Both the position numbers and the translations under genes were made by a program. From positions 62,001-126,000 of the forward strand of contig NZ_VCBA01000010.1 in assembly GCF_007995245.1 (NCBI RefSeq): a stretch of DNA of 64,000 bases, written 5' to 3'. This document shows, one piece after another, positions 1-8,441 of this stretch; within the stretch, counting starts at the first letter, position 1, and each line of letters begins with the position of its first letter. The notes beneath the pieces were generated by a model, which did no database searches, had not been told where the DNA came from, and saw nothing but the letters and a program-made list of their open reading frames with translations. The stretch comes from Tateyamaria sp. syn59 (GTDB lineage: Bacteria; Pseudomonadota; Alphaproteobacteria; Rhodobacterales; Rhodobacteraceae).

Positions 1-1866
1 CACCATCCCGGCGTCGTTCAGATCGGCCCAGATCGCGGGTAGGTCCTCGCCCTTCACGCCCAGCAAGTCGATGCGCTGCCCACCGGTCACTTTCACCGTT
101 GGCACATCGTACTTGTCGGCGGCATCAGCAATCGCGCGCAGCTCATCCGGCGTGGTGATCCCACCCCACATCCGCGGCACGACACTAAACGTGCCGTCTT
201 TCTGGATGTTTGCGTGCTTGCGCTCGTTGATAAAGCGCGACTGCGGGTCGTCCAGATATTCCAGCGGCCAGTCCGCAATCAGGTAATAGTTCAGGGCAGG
301 GCGGCACACATGGCAACCATCCCGCGTCTTCCAGCCACATTCCTGCCAGACGGCATCCATGGACTTGAGTTCCTGGGACTTGATCATCCGCCGCACGTCT
401 TCGTGCGTCAGATCGGTGCAGCCACAGATCGACTGCGCCGCGGGCATGACGAAATCATCGCCCAGCGTGACGGCCAGCACCTGCTCCACAAGTCCGGTGC
501 ATGTCCCGCAGGACGCAGATGCCTTGGTCACCGCTTTCACAGCCGTAAGGTCGGTCGCCCCACCTTCGATTGCATCTACGATGGTGCCTTTGCAAATGCC
601 GTTGCAGCCACAGATTTCCGCATCACGCGGTAAGGCTGCAACGGCTGCTAAAGGGTCCACGGGGGCACCCCCCTGGTAGGCCGGGCCAAAGATCACCCTA
701 TCGCGCATCTCGGCGATGTCGGTCTTGTCGCGGATCAGGCCGAAGAACCAATTGCTGTCAGCGGTGTCGCCATACATGACGGTGCCGACCACGACATTGT
801 CCTCAATGACAAGCCGTCGATACACCCCGCGCCCGGGATCCCTGAACACAATGTCCTCGCGCCCCTCGGCATCGGCAAAGTCCCCGGCAGAGAACAGGTC
901 ACACCCTGTCACCTTAAGCTTCGTGCTCAGTTCCTTCTGCACAAACGCTGCCTCGTCCCCAAGGATCGTCTGTGCCGCCACCTTCGCTTGATCGTAAAGC
1001 GGAGCGACCAGGCCGAAGATCGCTCCGTTGTGCTCCACACATTCGCCGACAGCGAGGATGTTCTCGTCCGACGTCACCATTTGGTCATCCACGTGGATGC
1101 CTTTGCCAACAGCCAGGCCCGCTTCCTGCGCCAGCGCAACGTTGGGCCGGATACCGACGGCCATCACCAGCAGGTCGCAAGGCAGTTCGGTACCATCATC
1201 CAGCAGCAACGCCTTCACCTTGCCATCTTCGCCCAGGATTTCCTTAGAGTTCGCCTGACACAGCACCGTGATGCCCTTGTCCACCAGCGCCTTGCGCAGC
1301 AGATAGCCTGCGGCCTCGTCCAGCTGACGCTCCATCAGGTGGCCCATGATGTGCACGACAGTCACGTCGACACCGCGTGCGGCCATGCCAGCCGCTGCTT
1401 CAAGCCCCAGAAGGCCGCCGCCAATGACTACAACCTTGTTCTGCGGCCCCATCGACATCATCAGTTCGGTGTCTTCCAGATCGCGATAGGCGATCACACC
1501 GTCCAAATCATGGCCGGGCAGGGGGATCATGAACGGGTTCGACCCGGTGCCGAAGATCAGCTTGTCATAGGGCAGCACGTCACCGTTCTCTGCGGTGACT
1601 GTCTTAGCTGTCCGATCCACCGATGCGACCCGCTCGCCAAAGCGGCAGGTGACACCGTTGGCTTCGTACCAATCGGCATCGTGTGTCACGATCTCTTCGT
1701 AGGTCTTGTCGCCCGCCAGCACTGGCGACAGCATGATGCGGTTGTAGTTCCCGCGCGGCTCAGCGTTGAACAGCGTGACGTTCACGTCCGCGCCCGCGTC
1801 AAACAGGTGCTCCAGCGCACGGCCCGAGGCCATGCCGGCACCAATGACGATGATATTCTGTGTCAT
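1..1866 (-). CDS. nirB: Nitrite reductase [NAD(P)H] large subunit NirB, C-terminus cut off by the window edge
   Basis: Assimilatory cytoplasmic nitrite reductase, which reduces nitrite to ammonium with NAD(P)H through FAD, Fe-S clusters and siroheme. 622 residues are visible. They show an FAD-binding GAGMASG near residue 9 and an NAD-binding GGGLLG near residue 150. Two BFD-like cysteine segments follow (CGCNGICKGT near residue 420, then a second ending in CHMCRPALNYY), and then the start of the ferredoxin-like half domain (RFINERKHANIQ). The siroheme/4Fe-4S half lies outside the window. The ATG at 1866 follows the transporter ATPase stop by 5 bp, with an AAAGAG Shine-Dalgarno, so it is co-transcribed with nrtABCD. 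Family assignment is secure; only the end is missing. Confidence 0.95.
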   Translation of the reverse strand, partial: MTQNIIVIGAGMASGRALEHLFDAGADVNVTLFNAEPRGNYNRIMLSPVLAGDKTYEEIVTHDADWYEANGVTCRFGERVASVDRTAKTVTAENGDVLPYDKLIFGTGSNPFMIPLPGHDLDGVIAYRDLEDTELMMSMGPQNKVVVIGGGLLGLEAAAGMAARGVDVTVVHIMGHLMERQLDEAAGYLLRKALVDKGITVLCQANSKEILGEDGKVKALLLDDGTELPCDLLVMAVGIRPNVALAQEAGLAVGKGIHVDDQMVTSDENILAVGECVEHNGAIFGLVAPLYDQAKVAAQTILGDEAAFVQKELSTKLKVTGCDLFSAGDFADAEGREDIVFRDPGRGVYRRLVIEDNVVVGTVMYGDTADSNWFFGLIRDKTDIAEMRDRVIFGPAYQGGAPVDPLAAVAALPRDAEICGCNGICKGTIVDAIEGGATDLTAVKAVTKASASCGTCTGLVEQVLAVTLGDDFVMPAAQSICGCTDLTHEDVRRMIKSQELKSMDAVWQECGWKTRDGCHVCRPALNYYLIADWPLEYLDDPQSRFINERKHANIQKDGTFSVVPRMWGGITTPDELRAIADAADKYDVPTVKVTGGQRIDLLGVKGEDLPAIWADLNDAGMV

Positions 1867-1871
1867 CTCTT

Positions 1872-3548
1872 TCACTCCGCTGCCATGGCTTTTGGCTTGG
1901 GTTTCGGCTTGGCGCCGTGCTCGTACTCTTCAAGGAAATCGAGCACATCCTGCCGGTAGTTGTAGTAATCTGGATGCTCCAACAGCGCCTTGCGCGTCCT
2001 TGGTCGGGGCAGGTCCACATCTACAATCTTACCAATGGTCGCCTGCGGCCCGTTGGTCATCATGACCACCCGGTCAGCCAACAGAATGGCCTCATCCACG
2101 TCATGCGTCACACAGATGGCAGTCACCTTGGTACGCGACCACACCTCCATGAGAACTTCCTGCAATTCCCAGCGCGTCAGGCTGTCGAGCATCCCAAACG
2201 GCTCATCCAGCAGCAGCAGCTTCGGCGACAGAGCAAAGGCACGCGCAATGCCAACCCGCTGCTTCATCCCGTTCGAGAGGTCCGCGGCCTGCTTGTCCAT
2301 CGCGTCGGCCAGTCCCACCCGCTCAAGGTAATACTCCACCACATCCTGCCGCTCTTCACGCGACGCGCGGGGATAAACCTTGTCCACACCAATCGCCACG
2401 TTCTCCTTGGCGCTCAGCCACGGGAACAGGTTGGGTGACTGGAAGACCACGGCCCGCTCGGGGTCCGCACCCTCCACATGGCGACCATCCAGCTTGATGG
2501 CCCCTTTGGAGATCTCGTTCAGCCCCGCCGCCATCGTCAGCACGGTCGACTTGCCGCAGCCCGAATGGCCAATCAGCGAAATAAACTCGCCCTTGTTGAT
2601 CTTCAGATCGAAATCCTCGACCACGGTAAGCGGCCCCTTCGGCGTCGGATACACCTTGTGCAACTGCGAGAAATCTAGGAACCGGTTCTCGATCATCCCC
2701 TTCTGCGCCTCGGCCACAGCCGATGGCACACCATGAATTGGGGTCACATCGGGCAGCACCTTGGTGCCCTCGACCTTGGCCTCGATCCCCACATCCATCA
2801 GGTACTTGGTCACATGCGCCCGCAACCGCTTGAACTGATCGTTATGGTTCATCTCCATGCGATCACGCGGGCGAGGGATGGAAACAGAGAACTCGTTACC
2901 CAACGTGCCGTCCGGGTTCAGCGCAATGATGCGGTCGGCCAGGATAATCGCCTCATCCACATCATTGGTAATCAGCACACAGGTCTTCTTGTCGGCTTCC
3001 CAGATATGTTCGATCTCGTCGGCCAGATTGGCGCGGGTCAGTGCGTCCAGCGCCGAAAGCGGCTCATCCAGCAGCAACACCTCGGGGTTCATCGCCAGCG
3101 CACGGGCCACATTCACCCGCTGCCGCATCCCGCCGGACAACTCGGCAGGACGGCGCGTGGTCGCGTGACCCAAACCCACCATCTTCACATAGTGATCGAC
3201 CTTCTCGGCCCGCTCCGCCTTCGACAGGTTGGGGAAAATGGTGTCCACAGCCAGACCCACATTCCCATTCACCGTCAGCCAGGGCATCAGCGAATAGCTC
3301 TGAAAGATCACCCCACGCTCCGGCCCCGGCCCGGTGATGGGCGCGCCCTTGAACGTCACCTCACCGAAGGACGGGGTATCCAGACCCGCCATCAGGTTGA
3401 TCAGGGTCGTCTTGCCGGTGCCCGAGAAGCCAAGGAGGACCAGAAACTCCCCCTCTTTCACGGACAGAGAGATGTCTTTCAAAACCTCCGTCCGCTCGGT
3501 GCCTGCGTCGAAATACTTCGATACGTTTTTGAACTCGATCATGCTCAT
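1872..3548 (-). CDS. nrtCD: Nitrate/nitrite ABC transporter, two fused ATP-binding domains (NrtC/NrtD-like)
   Basis: ATPase of the nitrate/nitrite importer, with two complete nucleotide-binding domains in one 558-residue chain. Domain 1 (about residues 1-250) has Walker [10 protein letters not shown], signature LSGGMRQR and Walker B LLLDEP, but ITNDVDEA where the switch histidine is expected. Domain 2 (about 285-540) has Walker [10 protein letters not shown], signature [14 protein letters not shown] and a normal VTHDVDEA. It lacks the NrtA-like C-terminal domain of cyanobacterial NrtC; a second ATPase is there instead. I prefer the ATG at 3548 (MSMIEFKNV). An in-frame GTG at 3557 overlaps the nrtB stop as GTGA and is also possible. 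It lies between nrtB and nirB in one operon. Confidence 0.92.
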
Positions 3549-3553
3549 GGCGA

Positions 3554-4633
3554 TCACCGGTTGTTCGTGAAGGTGAACATGGACTGGATGGCGTACATCA
3601 GGCGGTCCAGCAGGAAGCCGATGATGCCGATGGTGAACACGGCCACCATGATCTTGGCGAGAGACTGGCTCGATCCGTTCTGGAACTCATCCCAGACAAA
3701 CTTGCCCAGACCGGGGTTCTGCGCCAGCATTTCGGCGGCGATCAGCACCATCCAGCCAACACCCAAGCTCAGACGCAGACCGGTAAAGATCAGCGGCAGG
3801 GCGGAGGGCAGGACCAGCTTGGTGATCTTGGTCCAAGTGTTCATTTTCAGCACCTTCGACACGCTCACCAGATCCTTGTCGATGCTGGCCACCCCAAGCG
3901 CGGTGTTGATCAGCGTCGGCCAAAGCGAGCAGAGTGTCACGGTGATGGCCGATGTAAGGAAGGATTTGGCAAAGAAGCCGTCGGCGGCATAAGTGGCCGA
4001 CACAACCATCGTCACGATGGGTAACCATGCCAGCGGCGACACGGGCTTGAAGATTTGAATCAGCGGGTTGATGGCCGCGTTCACCGTCGGGCTCAGACCG
4101 GCAGCGATGCCCAGCGGGATGGCAACAACAGACGCGATCAGGAAGCCAAAAAACACCGTTTGGATCGAGGTCCAGATCTGATCGTAGTAAGTCGGCTTGC
4201 CGGTATAAACGCGCTCTTTCACACGGTCGGCCTGACCATCTGCGATCAGCTTGGCGTTACGCTCGTCCTGACGGACATAGAACGCGGCTTCTTTCTCTTT
4301 CTCACGCTGCGCGTCTTCGTGCAGCTTACCGACTTGCTCCCAAACCTGTGCGGGTCCGGGGATCGCACCCAGCGAAGTCTGCACCGTTGGTGCCAGCGAG
4401 GCCCATGCGACGAGGAAAAAACCGATGGCGACAAGCGGCACACCCAGCAGGCGCCAGATTTCCTTGGTCTGGGCCTTTGGGTTGTCACCGGCCGCTGCCT
4501 TCAGCACCGGTGTCAGCCAGGCGAGGCCAAGAACCTGAAACCATTTGTCTGCGGCGTTGATGCGGGTGAATGTCCGCTGTTTGCGTTCTTCGCGCGCTGC
4601 GGCGTCCAGATCGGATGGGTCGATGGCGGTCAT
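3554..4633 (-). CDS. nrtB: Nitrate/nitrite ABC transporter permease
   Basis: Inner-membrane subunit of the nitrate/nitrite importer, 359 residues. A hydrophobic segment near residues 55-80 is followed by a long charged stretch ([16 protein letters not shown] onward). The BPD_transp_1 domain then supplies about five further membrane segments and the ATPase-contact loop (around [14 protein letters not shown]). The frame stays open upstream to 4753, but I place the start at the ATG at 4633 ([10 protein letters not shown]). AGGAGAG lies just upstream, and the extra residues would be read from a repeat array rather than protein-like sequence. It is separated from nrtA by 243 bp that hold the 11-bp-period GTGCAC array. 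Confidence 0.92.
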
Positions 4634-4876: not shown

Positions 4877-6247
4877 TCAACCTTCGACAGCGTTGCCGAC
4901 GACCTTCTGCTCACCCTTCAGGCCGATGGGCAGGCTGTCGATGTAAGCGTTGGGCGCTTTCCCGTCGTAGGGGATGCCGTCGATGATGTCGGCGGCAGGC
5001 GTCGGTGCCTTGAACCCATCGCTGTCCCAGGGGAAGTCAGCCTCATTGGCCAAACCTTCGTCCACCAGCAGGCGGGCTGCTTCAAGGTAGATTTCGGGCT
5101 TGTAGACCTTGGCGGCCATGTCGAAATACCACTGGTCAGGCTTGGCTTCCGAGATCTGACCCCAGCGGCGCATCTGCGTCAGGTACCAGATCGCGTCGGA
5201 ATAGAACGGGTAGGTCGCGTTGTAGCGGAAGAACACGTTGAAGTCGGGGGCCGGGCGGCGGTCGCCCTTCTCGAATTCAAAGAAACCGGTCATCGAGTTC
5301 GCGATCACGTCGTAATCCGCGCCCACATATTCCGAGCGGCTCAAGATCTCGACCGCTTCCTCGCGGTTGGCGTTGTCGTTCTCGTCCAGCCAGATGGCCG
5401 CACGGATCAGCGCCTTGGTGATGGCCTTTGTGGTGTTGGGATGTTCTTCGGCGAACTCGTTGGTGATGCCGAACACTTTTTCAGGGTTGTTCTTCCACAT
5501 GTCATAGTCGGTGATGACCGGAACGCCGATCCCTTTGAACACGGCCTGCTGGTTCCATGGCTCACCCACGGCGTAGCCATATATTGTGCCCGCTTCCATC
5601 GTGGCGGGCATTTGTGGGGGCGGGGTCACGCTCAACAGCACGTCCGCACCGATCTGGCCGGTGATGTTGTCGGGGCTGTAATAGCCAGGCTCCAGACCAC
5701 CGGCGGCCAGCCAGTAGCGGATTTCGTAGTTGTGAGTGGAGACAGGGAACACCATGCCCATGTTGAAGGGCAGGCCTTGGTCTTTGTAGTCTTCAACGAC
5801 CGGCGCCAGAGCTTCAGCACTGATCGGGTGCTGCGGGCGGCCATCGTCCATCAGCGGAACGTGGGGCTTCATCTGCTCCCAGATTTCATTGGAAACCGTG
5901 ATGCCGTTGCCGTTCAGGTCCATCGAGAAGGGCGTGATGATGTGGGCCTCGGTGCCGTAGCCGATGGTAGCGGCGAGGGGCTGGCCCGCCAGCATGTGTG
6001 CACCATCAAGTTGGCCGTCGATTACGCCGTCCAGCAGCACTTTCCAGTTCGCTTGCGCTTCCAGCGTCACGAACAGACCTTCGTCTTCGAAGTAGCCGTT
6101 TTCATACGCGATGGCCAAGGGGGCCATGTCGGTCAGCTTGATGAAGCCAAACTTCAGCTCATCCTTTTCCAGATCCAGCAGCTCGGCATGTGCTGCCGTG
6201 CCAAGCAGGGCAGCCATGGCACCTGCGAAAGTAAAGAGACGGGTCAT
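4877..6247 (-). CDS. nrtA: Nitrate/nitrite ABC transporter periplasmic substrate-binding protein
   Basis: Periplasmic receptor delivering nitrate or nitrite to NrtB, NrtA/CmpA family, 456 residues. The start at 6247 ([10 protein letters not shown]) gives a clean Sec signal peptide with probable cleavage after AHA at residue 21. No lipobox cysteine is seen. Family segments include [49 protein letters not shown] and [29 protein letters not shown] provides the ribosome site. The frame remains open upstream, but that part would be read from the attenuator hairpin. It is the first gene after the NasT-type leader, so antitermination should control it and the genes behind it. Confidence 0.95.
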
Positions 6248-6268
6248 CCTGTCGGTCCTTTTTATAAC

Positions 6269-6332
6269 AAAAAAGTCGCCCGTTCCCTGGTGCGCACGGG
6301 AGGAGGTGTACGCAGTAGGAACGAGCGACTTT
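6269..6332 (-). terminator. Leader attenuator (intrinsic terminator) upstream of nrtA
   Basis: On the minus strand, arm AAAGTCGCTCGTTCC (6332 to 6318) pairs with GGAACGGGCGACTTT (6286 to 6272) over 15 positions with a single G-U. The second arm runs directly into six T residues (6274-6269). The 31-base loop separates the arms. The hairpin ends about 22 bp before the nrtA start, so unless it is disrupted it should stop transcription before nrtA. Its 5' arm shares bases with the second ANTAR-type hairpin (6323-6336), which makes the two structures mutually exclusive. Confidence 0.85.
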
Positions 6333-6382
6333 GCTCTTGATAGAGCCTCCTTCATGGAGGCGGAGGGAAGCATCTTTGCTTC
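6323..6382 (-). promoter_or_regulatory. Two-hexaloop ANTAR (NasT) RNA target in the nrtA leader
   Basis: Two small hairpins with six-base loops are read on the minus strand. P1 (6382-6367) is GAAGC-AAAGAT-GCTTC. P2 (6336-6323) is GAGC-AAAGTC-GCTC. Both loops have A at position 1 and G at position 4, the signature of RNAs bound by ANTAR antiterminators. The 3' half of P2 is the beginning of the terminator's 5' arm, so NasT binding would block terminator formation. A competing GCCTCC/GGAGGC hairpin lies between them (6345-6361). The upstream nasT and nasS genes fit this role. Confidence 0.8.
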
Positions 6383-6391
6383 GTTGAATCA

Positions 6392-6421
6392 CTGATAGCG
6401 ACTCAATCGGGCGTCAGCCAA
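6392..6421 (-). promoter_or_regulatory. Candidate sigma-70-type promoter for nrtA
   Basis: Minus-strand TTGGCT (6421-6416) and TATCAG (6397-6392) are separated by 18 bp. Transcription would begin close to 6385, just before the first ANTAR hairpin. The match to consensus is moderate, and the operon could also be read from nasT. An ATTGGCT heptamer occurs twice nearby, at the -35 position and about 23 bp upstream. Confidence 0.3.
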
Positions 6422-6481
6422 TTGGATTTTGGTCGTAGCCAATGATTTTCTGCTGCGATGCAGCAACTGCCCAAAAACTAA

Positions 6482-7660
6482 TCATTCCGCTCCGCCAAAA
6501 TCGAAAATCTCGCCATCAAAAAAAGCATCCGGCCCCAGAATCATCTCCCCCCGCGTCGACGCGACGGCCATGGGGTGGGTCAGGGCGCCCTCGATTTTGG
6601 CGGAGGCGCCAGGCATGTCGACGCCTATGGGACCCAGATGCTGACGGTAGCAATCTGGGCGCATCGTGCGCTGGGCAATTTCAATGGCGTGGTCGCGGTT
6701 GATACCTGCAAGGCGCGCAATCTCGGCCCCGATCCACGCGGCCTGGCTGCGCCACGGAAAGTTGGCTGCTCGATCATGAAAGCGCAAGAAGCCGGGCACA
6801 TCTACGGGGGCTGCACCAAATTGCGTAGCAAAGCGGCCCATCAATGCGTGATCGAGTGCGGCGTGCGGCAGGTCCAGATGCGCGCTCCGGGCCAGGATCT
6901 CGATGGCGAGGGGCCGGTTCTTGGGCGTATCGAGCCACGCAGCTGCCCGCGCAACAGCCCGCATCAACGCGCCCACAAGGCTTGGATTGTCTTCAACCCA
7001 GGCATGCCGTGCGGCCAGAACCTTTTCCGGGGCATGCGCCCAGATCGCAGCGCCTGGCAGGATCAATTCGCCTACGTTGTTGCCAACGGCAACAGACCCC
7101 CATGGCTCACCTACGCAGAAGACGTCAATCTCGTCTGATGCGACGGCGTCCGCCATCAGCGGCGGCGGCGTTGTAATGATGTGCAGGGCGGACGGATCTC
7201 GCAGCCCCACGTGACCAATCCAGTATTCAAAAAGCAGCCGGTGCATCGAATAGGGAAACGGCACGCCAACCCGCAGCGGGCGATCAAGGGCAGACAGCAT
7301 CGGACCTGCGGTGTCCTGCGGTGGTGCAAAACCGCCCGGCCAACCCTTGTGCCGCATCGCATCCGCCATCGCGTTCGATACACCGATGACCGTCCCGTTC
7401 ACCGACAAGACCATCAACGCGTCGATCCGTGCCATCGGCCCGCTCAGCCCAAGCGACATTGCTATGGGCATAGGCGCGAGCATATGTGCGACATCTAGAT
7501 GCCCCAAGGCGAGCAGGTCGCGTAACGCGGCCCAAGAAGGCTGGCGCAGCAGATTGAGCGACAACCCCTCATCGGCTGCAAAATTCAATTCCTGCGCCAC
7601 GATGAGTGGGGCGCTGTCGACCAGGGGCACGTAGCCACAATTCAGGCGGGCGGTACTCAT
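6482..7660 (-). CDS. nasS: NasS-type nitrate/nitrite sensor, cytoplasmic NrtA homologue
   Basis: Cytoplasmic sensor related to NrtA, expected to hold NasT inactive until nitrate or nitrite binds. The 392 residues start MSTARLNCGYVPLVDSAPL with no signal peptide, unlike the exported paralogue encoded next to it. Shared segments include GHLDVAHMLAPMPIAM, SVNGTVIGVSN, VGEPWGSVAV and APEKVLAARHAWVEDNP. The ATG at 7660 overlaps the nasT stop by 4 bp (ATGA), so translation of the pair is coupled, as expected for partners that bind each other. Family membership is clear; the sensor role is inferred from missing export signal, the nasT partner and the antitermination leader. Confidence 0.92.
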   Translation of the reverse strand: MSTARLNCGYVPLVDSAPLIVAQELNFAADEGLSLNLLRQPSWAALRDLLALGHLDVAHMLAPMPIAMSLGLSGPMARIDALMVLSVNGTVIGVSNAMADAMRHKGWPGGFAPPQDTAGPMLSALDRPLRVGVPFPYSMHRLLFEYWIGHVGLRDPSALHIITTPPPLMADAVASDEIDVFCVGEPWGSVAVGNNVGELILPGAAIWAHAPEKVLAARHAWVEDNPSLVGALMRAVARAAAWLDTPKNRPLAIEILARSAHLDLPHAALDHALMGRFATQFGAAPVDVPGFLRFHDRAANFPWRSQAAWIGAEIARLAGINRDHAIEIAQRTMRPDCYRQHLGPIGVDMPGASAKIEGALTHPMAVASTRGEMILGPDAFFDGEIFDFGGAE

Positions 7661-8229
7661 GTCAGCAAATCCGATGCGGTCAGCAGGGCCTGGGCCACCT
7701 CGATCACCTTGCGATTCTGCGACATGGCGGTCTTGCGCAACAGGGCATAGGCCTCTTCCTCGCCCACGCCCTTGGCGCGCATGATCATGCCCTTGGCGCG
7801 GTCTACGGTCTTGCGGTCGGCCAGCGCCTGCTTGGCCGCCTCAAGCTCATTGCGCATCTGGCTCATCATCTGGAAGCGGGCAATGGCCGTTTGCAGGACC
7901 GGTTTGATCCGGTCGGGCTGCAATTCTCCGACCACATAGGCAGATAGGCCCGCGGCAACTGCAGCTTGCGTCATCTCGTCGTCCGAGCGGTCCACGAACA
8001 TCGCGACGGGGCGGCTTTGCGCTTCGGATGCGACACTGACCTGCTCCAAAGCATCGCGGGAAGGGTTGGCAAGGTCGATCAACACCAGGTCCGGATCCAG
8101 AGCGGCGAGCTTGCGCGCCAGCCCAGTTACATCGCCCAGCACGACAACGTCGTTCCAGCCCCCTTCCATCAGCGCGTCGATAATGTCCCGCGCGCGGTCC
8201 GGGTCCGGTTCGATTACAGCAATTTTCAT
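7657..8229 (-). CDS. nasT: NasT, response-regulator-like ANTAR transcription antiterminator
   Basis: RNA-binding antiterminator of the nitrate assimilation genes, 190 residues. The N-terminal receiver-like domain (MKIAVIEPDPDRARDIIDAL, then LVLIDLANPSRDA) carries the usual acidic residues. The C-terminal ANTAR domain (about residues 125-185) includes LADRKTVDRAKGMIMRAKG and EEAYALLRKTAM. The start at 8229 (MKIAVIEP) matches the family; the frame is open further upstream, but that sequence is not domain-like. It is first in the operon and its predicted RNA target lies just downstream of nasS. The 212-bp spacer to the divergent gene at 8442 must hold promoters for both directions, and I could not assign them. 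Confidence 0.93.
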   Translation of the reverse strand: MKIAVIEPDPDRARDIIDALMEGGWNDVVVLGDVTGLARKLAALDPDLVLIDLANPSRDALEQVSVASEAQSRPVAMFVDRSDDEMTQAAVAAGLSAYVVGELQPDRIKPVLQTAIARFQMMSQMRNELEAAKQALADRKTVDRAKGMIMRAKGVGEEEAYALLRKTAMSQNRKVIEVAQALLTASDLLT

Positions 8230-8441
8230 TTCTTCGGTCACGGAAGATGTGGTGCGCGATGGGCGCGGCCTGATCCATCCGCGACGCACAGGCTGCTCCC
8301 TGATGTCGCATGACGCACAGATTGTGTCCCAAGGTGTGAGCAATGCGCACAAAAAACTGGCAGGAAGTGAACAAAGCGCTGGCGTAACTTCGTTATCCAC
8401 CGCACGGTCTGTGATGTCGGAACGGCGACACGGAGGTGAAG

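Follow-up and report, generated by a model that had tools for sequence, protein, structure and literature searches.

An nrtA leader of Tateyamaria sp. syn59 as a very probable NasST-controlled transcription attenuator with a middle hairpin and an anti-Shine-Dalgarno-type terminator loop

What decides whether the marine roseobacter Tateyamaria sp. syn59 transcribes its nitrate assimilation operon? An initial annotation of the window, by which we mean the whole stretch of 64,000 nucleotides analysed here, read the leader upstream of nrtA as a NasT-type attenuator in which two hexaloop hairpins feed a terminator. We consider it very probable that the nrtA leader is a NasST-controlled transcription attenuator, on account of its anatomy, the exclusion of one structure by another through shared bases, covariation, synteny, one covariance model match, and the presence of one ANTAR protein in the genome. 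The binding of NasT to this leader, its release by nitrate and the direction of control are extrapolated from other species.

The genes that flank the leader, together with a promoter candidate, are as follows.

7657..8235, minus strand: nasT, 192 amino acids, with a receiver-like and an ANTAR RNA-binding domain, the presumed antiterminator (PF03861, 69.6 bits)
6482..7660, minus strand: nasS, an NrtA-like binding protein and presumed nitrate/nitrite sensor (PF13379, 217 bits)
6393..6421, minus strand: possible promoter, seen by eye only (TTGGCT-17-CTATCA)
4877..6247, minus strand: nrtA, the first gene under presumed control (PF13379, 313 bits)
3554..4633, minus strand: nrtB, nitrate ABC permease (PF00528; TIGR01183 at 155.7 bits, below the cut-off of 209.05)
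1872..3557, minus strand: nrtCD, a single protein with two ATP-binding halves (TIGR01184, 595.7 bits, in two stretches)
1..1875, minus strand: nirB, which runs past the window edge

These profile matches agree with the initial annotation in placing nasT and nasS directly upstream and nrtABCD-nirB downstream, with nrtC and nrtD fused. As in NasST systems, an NrtA-like nasS and a nasT adjoin nitrate assimilation genes; beyond the window, nirB is followed by genes for a nirD-like Rieske protein, a molybdopterin nitrate reductase and a CysG-type protein. The reading frames of nasS and nasT overlap by 4 bases, nasS lying between nasT and the leader, and the nrtA start codon at 6247 is preceded by AAGGA at 6260-6256. 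NasT is the sole PF03861 match in the 4.57 Mb genome at E<=0.001, which places the genome's one ANTAR gene in the nasTS pair directly upstream of the leader. By sequence, the solved chains closest to it are Rv1626 (1s8n) and EutV (6wsh/6ww6), then NasR (4akk), and the most similar NasT among named genomes comes from Tateyamaria.

Our guess that the transcript starts just upstream of the first hairpin derives from the possible promoter TTGGCT-17-CTATCA; a consensus scan found no sigma-70 site at 6393..6421. Just past nasS, at 6465-6451 on the minus strand, lies the palindrome TGCTGCATCGCAGCA, a candidate site for a regulator (NtrC or another), and a similar pattern stands upstream of the first hairpin in 37 of the 72 related leaders described below. 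Elsewhere in the alphaproteobacteria, sigma-54-like sites (TGGCAC-N5-(T)TGC) were seen by eye 5' of the hairpins at ten loci (L105, L106, L107, L108, L111, L112, L136, L138, L139 and L141); none was seen in the window.

Between nasTS and nrtA, the leader itself is made up of these elements.

6367..6382, minus strand: P1, the first ANTAR hairpin (GAAGC-AAAGAT-GCTTC, loop A1/G4)
6345..6361, minus strand: Pm, the middle hairpin (GCCTCC-ATGAA-GGAGGC, 6 bp, five-base loop ATGAA)
6323..6336, minus strand: P2, the second ANTAR hairpin and antiterminator (GAGC-AAAGTC-GCTC, loop A1/G4)
6269..6332, minus strand: intrinsic terminator, with a 16-pair lower helix in the predicted fold and a six-T run
6291..6314, minus strand: apical terminator hairpin with an anti-Shine-Dalgarno-type loop, CCTCCTCCC lying at 6306-6298

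Both hairpins with A1/G4 loops are present as first described, each string occurring once on the minus strand. That description, which spoke of two hexaloops, holds for P1 and P2 and is incomplete, as a third hairpin lies between them; Pm and the apical terminator hairpin, whose loop is ACCTCCTCCC (6307-6298), are two features that it lacked. It was likewise right about the six T residues, while its 15-position terminator stem gives way to a lower helix of 16 pairs in the RNAfold prediction, 3 of which are A-U pairs with the T run. Bases 6332-6323, the 5' arm of the terminator, are common to P2 and the terminator, so the two exclude each other, as had been claimed. The suggested folding check gave a leader (6386-6269) far more stable than its dinucleotide shuffles (-54.3 kcal/mol against -29.5, sd 3.6; z -6.96; 0 of 200 shuffles as stable), and the terminator part alone (6335-6269) reached -35.9 with z -7.05. 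RNAfold adds an A-U closing pair inside the P1 loop that leaves AAGA, whereas RNA bound by ANTAR proteins is described with a six-base loop.

The arrangement of these elements is shared by relatives. Matches to NrtA were found in 46 of 101 relatives, of which the best 30 were taken as loci, and a NasT scan of genome contigs gave 65 loci, those numbered L032-L085 having NasT, NasS and NrtA. NasS adjoins nrtA in 84/84 of the loci compared, which were chosen for holding nrtA or nasT, and NasT accompanies it in 54/54 of those fetched through NasT (L032-L085). From these 84 loci (L002-L085) came 74 nasS-nrtA intervals that were non-empty and distinct, among them that of the window, and P1 and P2 could be placed in 72 of them, 62 automatically and 10 by hand, with L030 and L031 left unplaced. 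The first loop position is A in 68 of the 72 P1 loops (G in 4) and in 70 of the 72 P2 loops (G in 2); the G at position 4 in 72/72 holds by construction, because the search rule demanded a purine at position 1 and G4. Since some loops have G at position 1 (L053, L078, L040 and L067 in P1; L027 and L053 in P2; L156 also), that position may accept any purine. Two loci are odd in other ways: at L051 the nrtA match is split over two frames and the interval is empty, perhaps because of an error in sequencing or because the gene is damaged, and L057, a record titled Nocardioides marinus, holds a nasT-nasS-leader-nrtA set of Rhodobacterales type and is probably mislabelled or contaminated.

Absence of covariation in relatives would have spoken against the attenuator, and covariation was found across Rhodobacterales leaders for P1, Pm and the terminator. 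In a MAFFT alignment of 44 leaders, Pm of the nearest relatives and Pm of other roseobacters fell into different registers, for which reason covariation was counted only on alignment A2, which comprises 27 of the 72 leaders, hand-picked and mostly of one middle-loop pattern, without L002-L017 and with one leader labelled as the same genus (L020, NrtA 84% identical). With P2 in the structure, A2 scored 0.292 against 0.135 (sd 0.014) when shuffled and at most 0.087 when slid by 1-3 columns; with the terminator replacing P2, it scored 0.284 against 0.138 when shuffled and at most 0.085 when slid. The shuffles ignore relatedness, which the slid control keeps. Pairing was possible in 84.2% of cells against 74.0% in shuffles, with 54 both-side changes against 21.1, and such changes occurred in 7 of 8 P1 pairs, 3 of 5 Pm pairs and 4 of 12 terminator pairs scored. 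In Pm most of them fall on the single pair that closes the loop (8 cells), and the CCC/GGG core is almost constant in A2; some P1 positions are often unpaired, the outermost pair in 14/27 leaders. P2 is nearly invariant in relatives, so that covariation says little about it.

A covariance model, R1, was built from the 27 A2 leaders, with the window and its closest relatives excluded and L020 included. R1 gave the window leader 49.1 bits, where the next best place in the window had 9.4. Within the genome the leader was the sole match at E<=10 among the 150 of 2408 first-look candidates scored, and the attenuator therefore probably has only one close copy in this genome. Run with strict filters over 385 genomes of the class, R1 had matches in 13 at E<=0.1, whereas 59 of the 385 encode NasS- or NrtA-like proteins at 1e-40, which marks the model as lineage-bound. 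Applied to 48 selected loci, R1 recognised the leader at E<=1 in 46, all but L136 and L152, with chance matches reaching about 19 bits.

Could this be an ordinary terminator region whose likeness to an ANTAR leader arose by chance? Short hairpins with G+C stems are common, and nothing in the window attained the gathering score of any Rfam family, a result that also weighs against the attenuator reading. Yet the covariation of P1, Pm and the terminator, the single strong R1 match and the adjacency of the leader to nasTS in the loci compared all oppose a chance likeness, which we regard as highly improbable. Six weak Rfam matches in 5900-6800 were all below cut-off, and those to PVT1_4, CC0196 and two snoRNAs were dismissed as chance; a search of a longer stretch, L157, likewise gave no Rfam family matching the leader at E<=1.

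Taking the leader as an attenuator, its operation can be pictured from what is known in other species. Transcription would start near P1. Without nitrate or nitrite, NasS would hold NasT, the terminator at 6332-6269 would fold and RNA polymerase would stop after the run of U. Once nitrate or nitrite is present, NasS would let NasT go, and the freed NasT would bind the A1/G4 hexaloop of P1 and then capture the emerging P2. Because P2 and the terminator have bases in common, P2 would block the terminator, and transcription would pass into nrtA-nrtB-nrtCD-nirB-nirD-nitrate reductase-cysG. Meanwhile Pm would fold away 17 of the 30 linker bases, so that only 5 on the P1 side and 8 on the P2 side would stay unpaired.

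Among the closest systems is the Paracoccus denitrificans nasA leader, which also lies directly downstream of nasTS and has hairpins, with premature termination (PMC3795266, PMC5424462). There, NasT binds the nasA leader RNA and nitrate splits NasS from NasT (PMC3795266), and expression of nasA requires hairpin HI (PMC5424462); NasT binding, premature termination and the nitrate-induced split would apply to the window leader by analogy. The Paracoccus leader, however, precedes nasABGHC rather than nrtA-nrtB-nrtCD with nirB, and in P. denitrificans strain HAMBI_2443 (L152) there are hexaloops with no clear overlap of P2 and terminator and no R1 match at E<=1. In Bradyrhizobium, NasT acts on the nosR leader (PMC6759348). 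The Klebsiella nasF leader likewise mediates nitrate-responsive antitermination and has A1/G4 in its P1 and P2 loops, but NasR itself senses nitrate, and nasF, in the portions of the report available, consists of P1, P2 and terminator, with no middle hairpin described (PMC3369936). Like the window leader, the Enterococcus faecalis eut RNA recognised by EutV has two six-base A1/G4 loops with P2 lying over the terminator (PMC3369931, PMC8934654); EutV is activated by phosphorylation (PMC8934654), NasT by release from NasS (PMC3795266, PMC5424462).

Several observations count against the attenuator reading. The stem of P2 is short, at 4 pairs, and is opposed by a terminator of great stability, the near invariance of P2 leaves little covariation support, and mutation of the second Paracoccus hairpin, HII, hardly altered expression on nitrate (PMC5424462). 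The leader has two A1/G4 hexaloop hairpins, a P2 over the 5' arm of the terminator and a cognate ANTAR protein, as ANTAR leaders do, but not their short linker: its P1-P2 linker measures 30 nt (5 nt after P1, 17 in Pm and 8 before P2), or 13 nt with Pm folded away, as against 5-12 nt in eut, while 2-25 nt were accepted in an actinobacterial survey (PMC8164766). Induction of E. faecalis eutP fell drastically when the linker was 3 or 14 nt long (PMC3369931), and lengthening the linker by 20 nt abolished antitermination by EutV in vitro (PMC8934654). As the 2012 definition of ANTAR leaders allows a "variable linker" (PMC3369931), we do not treat linker length as a strict rule of the family and class the window leader as a variant.

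Since EutV tolerates no long linkers, we think that Pm either hides the length of the linker or is a third protein site; its role is a guess. In the window, the linker folds with z -3.57, and over the 72 linkers the mean z is -1.31, with 24/72 at or below the 5th shuffle percentile and 36/72 at or below the 10th; in the 36/72 above the 10th percentile, Pm is unconvincing. To the first possibility, that Pm is a spacer hairpin, a tolerated insertion that folds away and leaves a near-ordinary linker while making no contact with NasT, we assign close to an even chance. Two leaders that have no Pm (L044, L048) possess plain linkers of 15 and 14 nt, close to the 13 nt that remain in the window once Pm is removed. 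Moreover, the A2 stems are mostly CCC/GGG plus a covarying pair around a five-base loop, which reads NNGAN in aligned columns of 23 of the 27 leaders; because this closing pair covaries (AU 8, UA 5, GC 3, GU 2, other 9), the A2 loops are five-base loops, not ANTAR six-base ones. A spacer needs no particular loop, though, and ANTAR-type hexaloops (stem of at least 4 pairs, purine 1, G4) are found in 21 of the 72 Rhodobacterales linkers against 1.9 in shuffles (sd 1.3, max 6), and in 12 of 18 other linkers against 0.6 (sd 0.7, max 3), with the reservation that these shuffles ignore relatedness and that several of the 21 are close relatives. One of the 21, L061 (GAAG-ACCGGG-TTTC), is off the Pm position and probably due to chance; two further leaders, L059 and L080, have two predicted hairpins between P1 and P2.

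This same enrichment favours the second possibility, a third NasT-binding hairpin, in which NasT would step from P1 to Pm to P2 across short gaps, or oligomers would fill all three, the copy in the window being degenerate. Because many related leaders have an ANTAR-type hexaloop there, Pm may be a third NasT site that has decayed in the window, where it does look degenerate. We find this plausible, if at somewhat less than an even chance. The near relatives L005-L007, L011 and L012 have a six-base A1/G4 Pm loop (L010 has G1/G4), while the window (ATGAA), L003, L004, L008 and L009 are parsed with a five-base loop. Three A1/G4 loops occur in Rhodobacter sp. CZR27 (AACGGC, AAGGAC, AATGAC) and in Sphingomonas parapaucimobilis (AATGGC, AATGAC, AACGAA), the third being identified in both by eye, on a 3-bp stem over the terminator. 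A dimer of EutV binds one hexaloop, a single hexaloop has been proposed as the minimal motif (PMC8934654), and NasT freed by nitrate is oligomeric (PMC3795266). Against a third site stand the window Pm loop, with its five bases and a G in third place, a pattern that most A2 leaders share, the existence of two leaders that do without Pm, and the relatedness that the shuffles ignore; in L005-L007, furthermore, loop bases 1 and 6 of Pm can pair to leave a four-base loop, as they can in P1 of the window.

A survey of other families covered 54 stretches, four of which belong to the window's own family; 25 had no candidate, 4 scored below 26 and 25 scored at least 26. Loops at least 36 nt apart were found in 15 of the latter and in 3 of five plasmid loci examined among 362 plasmid records with a NasS match, which together make up the 18 other linkers mentioned above. 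The last two hairpins of the remaining 10/25 are only 1-8 nt apart, and the three-hairpin form is therefore not universal. Left out were L152 (Paracoccus denitrificans), where P2 and terminator are not clear, and L154 (Sinorhizobium terangae), with a 4-nt gap. Across the phylum, NasT was present in 90 of the 299 genomes surveyed.

Beyond Pm, the leader has a second unusual part in its terminator loop, which carries CCUCCUCCC, unpaired in the fold. This is the anti-Shine-Dalgarno loop of the SmelA075/ar14 sRNAs (PMC3927594, PMC10746234), and it gives the CcsR RNAs their Rfam name. The leader resembles CcsR/ar14 (NfeR1) in having a hairpin loop with this motif (PMC3927594, PMC10746234), and the same genome has a CcsR-like array, but ar14 RNAs have three such loops (PMC10746234) where the window has one, inside an attenuator terminator, and its scores stay below the gathering scores of these families (ar14, 17.7 against 58.8 bits; CcsR1, 13.9 against 65.3).

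The motif recurs at this place in relatives. With the end of the terminator set at 60 nt where the T run was unrecognised, TCCTCCC occurs in 44 of the 72 leader terminators (0.7 in shuffles) and CTCCTCCC in 37 (0.26). Within L032-L085, CTCCTCC or TCCTCCC is present in 34/60 terminator-like sites of the nasS-nrtA interval and in 0/210 elsewhere, and CTCCTCCC, counted on both strands, occurs 30 times in 14.4 kb of intervals against 8 times in 1,045 kb elsewhere. A similar hairpin sits just 3' of the terminator in five further leaders (L015, L019, L022, L056 and L082); a sixth case, L053, was rejected, its motif hairpin lying inside the nrtA coding sequence. The motif is missing from 22/72 leaders, both in the terminator and just after it, and is rare outside Rhodobacterales-type loci, where TCCTCC falls within 65 nt after P2 in 4 of 25 leaders, once past the T run. 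In the window CTCCTCCC occurs once, against 2 expected, and in the genome CCTCCTCCC has 24 copies against 31 for the reversed pattern and is not over-represented; the signal is one of conservation at the leader terminator, not of genome-wide abundance. Six of the 24 copies lie in one 260-base array of hairpin-like repeats (L223, 369-665; G000:C2:432687-432947), which scores 55.9 bits (E 3.5e-12) against CcsR1, short of the 65.3 required, the ar14 match also being below cut-off.

These findings lead us to hypothesize that the stopped nrtA leader is an anti-Shine-Dalgarno sRNA. Taken further, nitrate would set NasT on a three-hairpin track that opens the operon, and without nitrate the stopped RNA would act in trans, its CCUCCUCCC loop silencing mRNAs with GGGAGGAG; such a two-output switch is a speculative and, in our judgement, unlikely reading. 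There is precedent for stopped leaders that double as sRNAs in Rhodobacter sphaeroides UpsM, which is produced when transcription partly terminates within a 5' UTR (PMC8625941), and NfeR1 silences ntrB in Sinorhizobium through this very motif (PMC10746234). The genome has 22 sites of the form GGGAGGAG-N3-10-ATG against 2 for the reversed pattern, as is expected of any Shine-Dalgarno-like pattern, which indicates a capacity and is no proof.

Alternatively, the CCUCCUCCC loop might act only in cis, for instance through base pairing to the ribosome-binding site of nrtA or as an aid to termination, the stopped leader having no targets. In the five leaders where the hairpin is downstream of the terminator, it would be made only on readthrough, which, like the 22/72 leaders that lack the motif and the absence of genome-wide over-representation of the 9-mer, fits a role in cis. 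However, AAGGA of nrtA can pair with only about four loop bases (by eye), and the motif is no general termination aid, because the 210 other terminator-like flank sites lack it. An action restricted to cis is possible and, on this evidence, rather doubtful.

The core mechanism of NasT/ANTAR antitermination is already known from Paracoccus, Bradyrhizobium and Klebsiella. To this, the leader and many of its relatives add a further hairpin within the motif bound by the protein and, in the terminator, a loop that looks like the tail of rRNA and through which the stopped transcript could regulate other genes. A third hairpin in ANTAR leaders was not found in the literature searched, which is weak evidence, as most subscription journals and supplements lay outside that search; a word search of the available text of PMC3369931 and PMC8164766 gave no third or triple hairpin, and EutX RNA has an additional single hexaloop (PMC8934654).

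The published ANTAR model has two hairpins at tight spacing, and the natural series of leaders in which Pm has a full ANTAR loop, a degenerate one or is missing offers a test of whether the protein hops along the RNA or holds two loops. The anti-Shine-Dalgarno loop, common in the leader terminators, makes it possible to ask directly whether terminated leader transcripts also serve as sRNAs through which nitrate would influence translation. If the two-output switch were true, the released RNA would measure about 110-120 nt, its targets would be mRNAs with GGGAGGAG ribosome-binding sites, and it would run parallel to the NfeR1/ar14 sRNAs that act on nitrogen genes, so that a single attenuator would give up an operon in exchange for a trans-acting sRNA.
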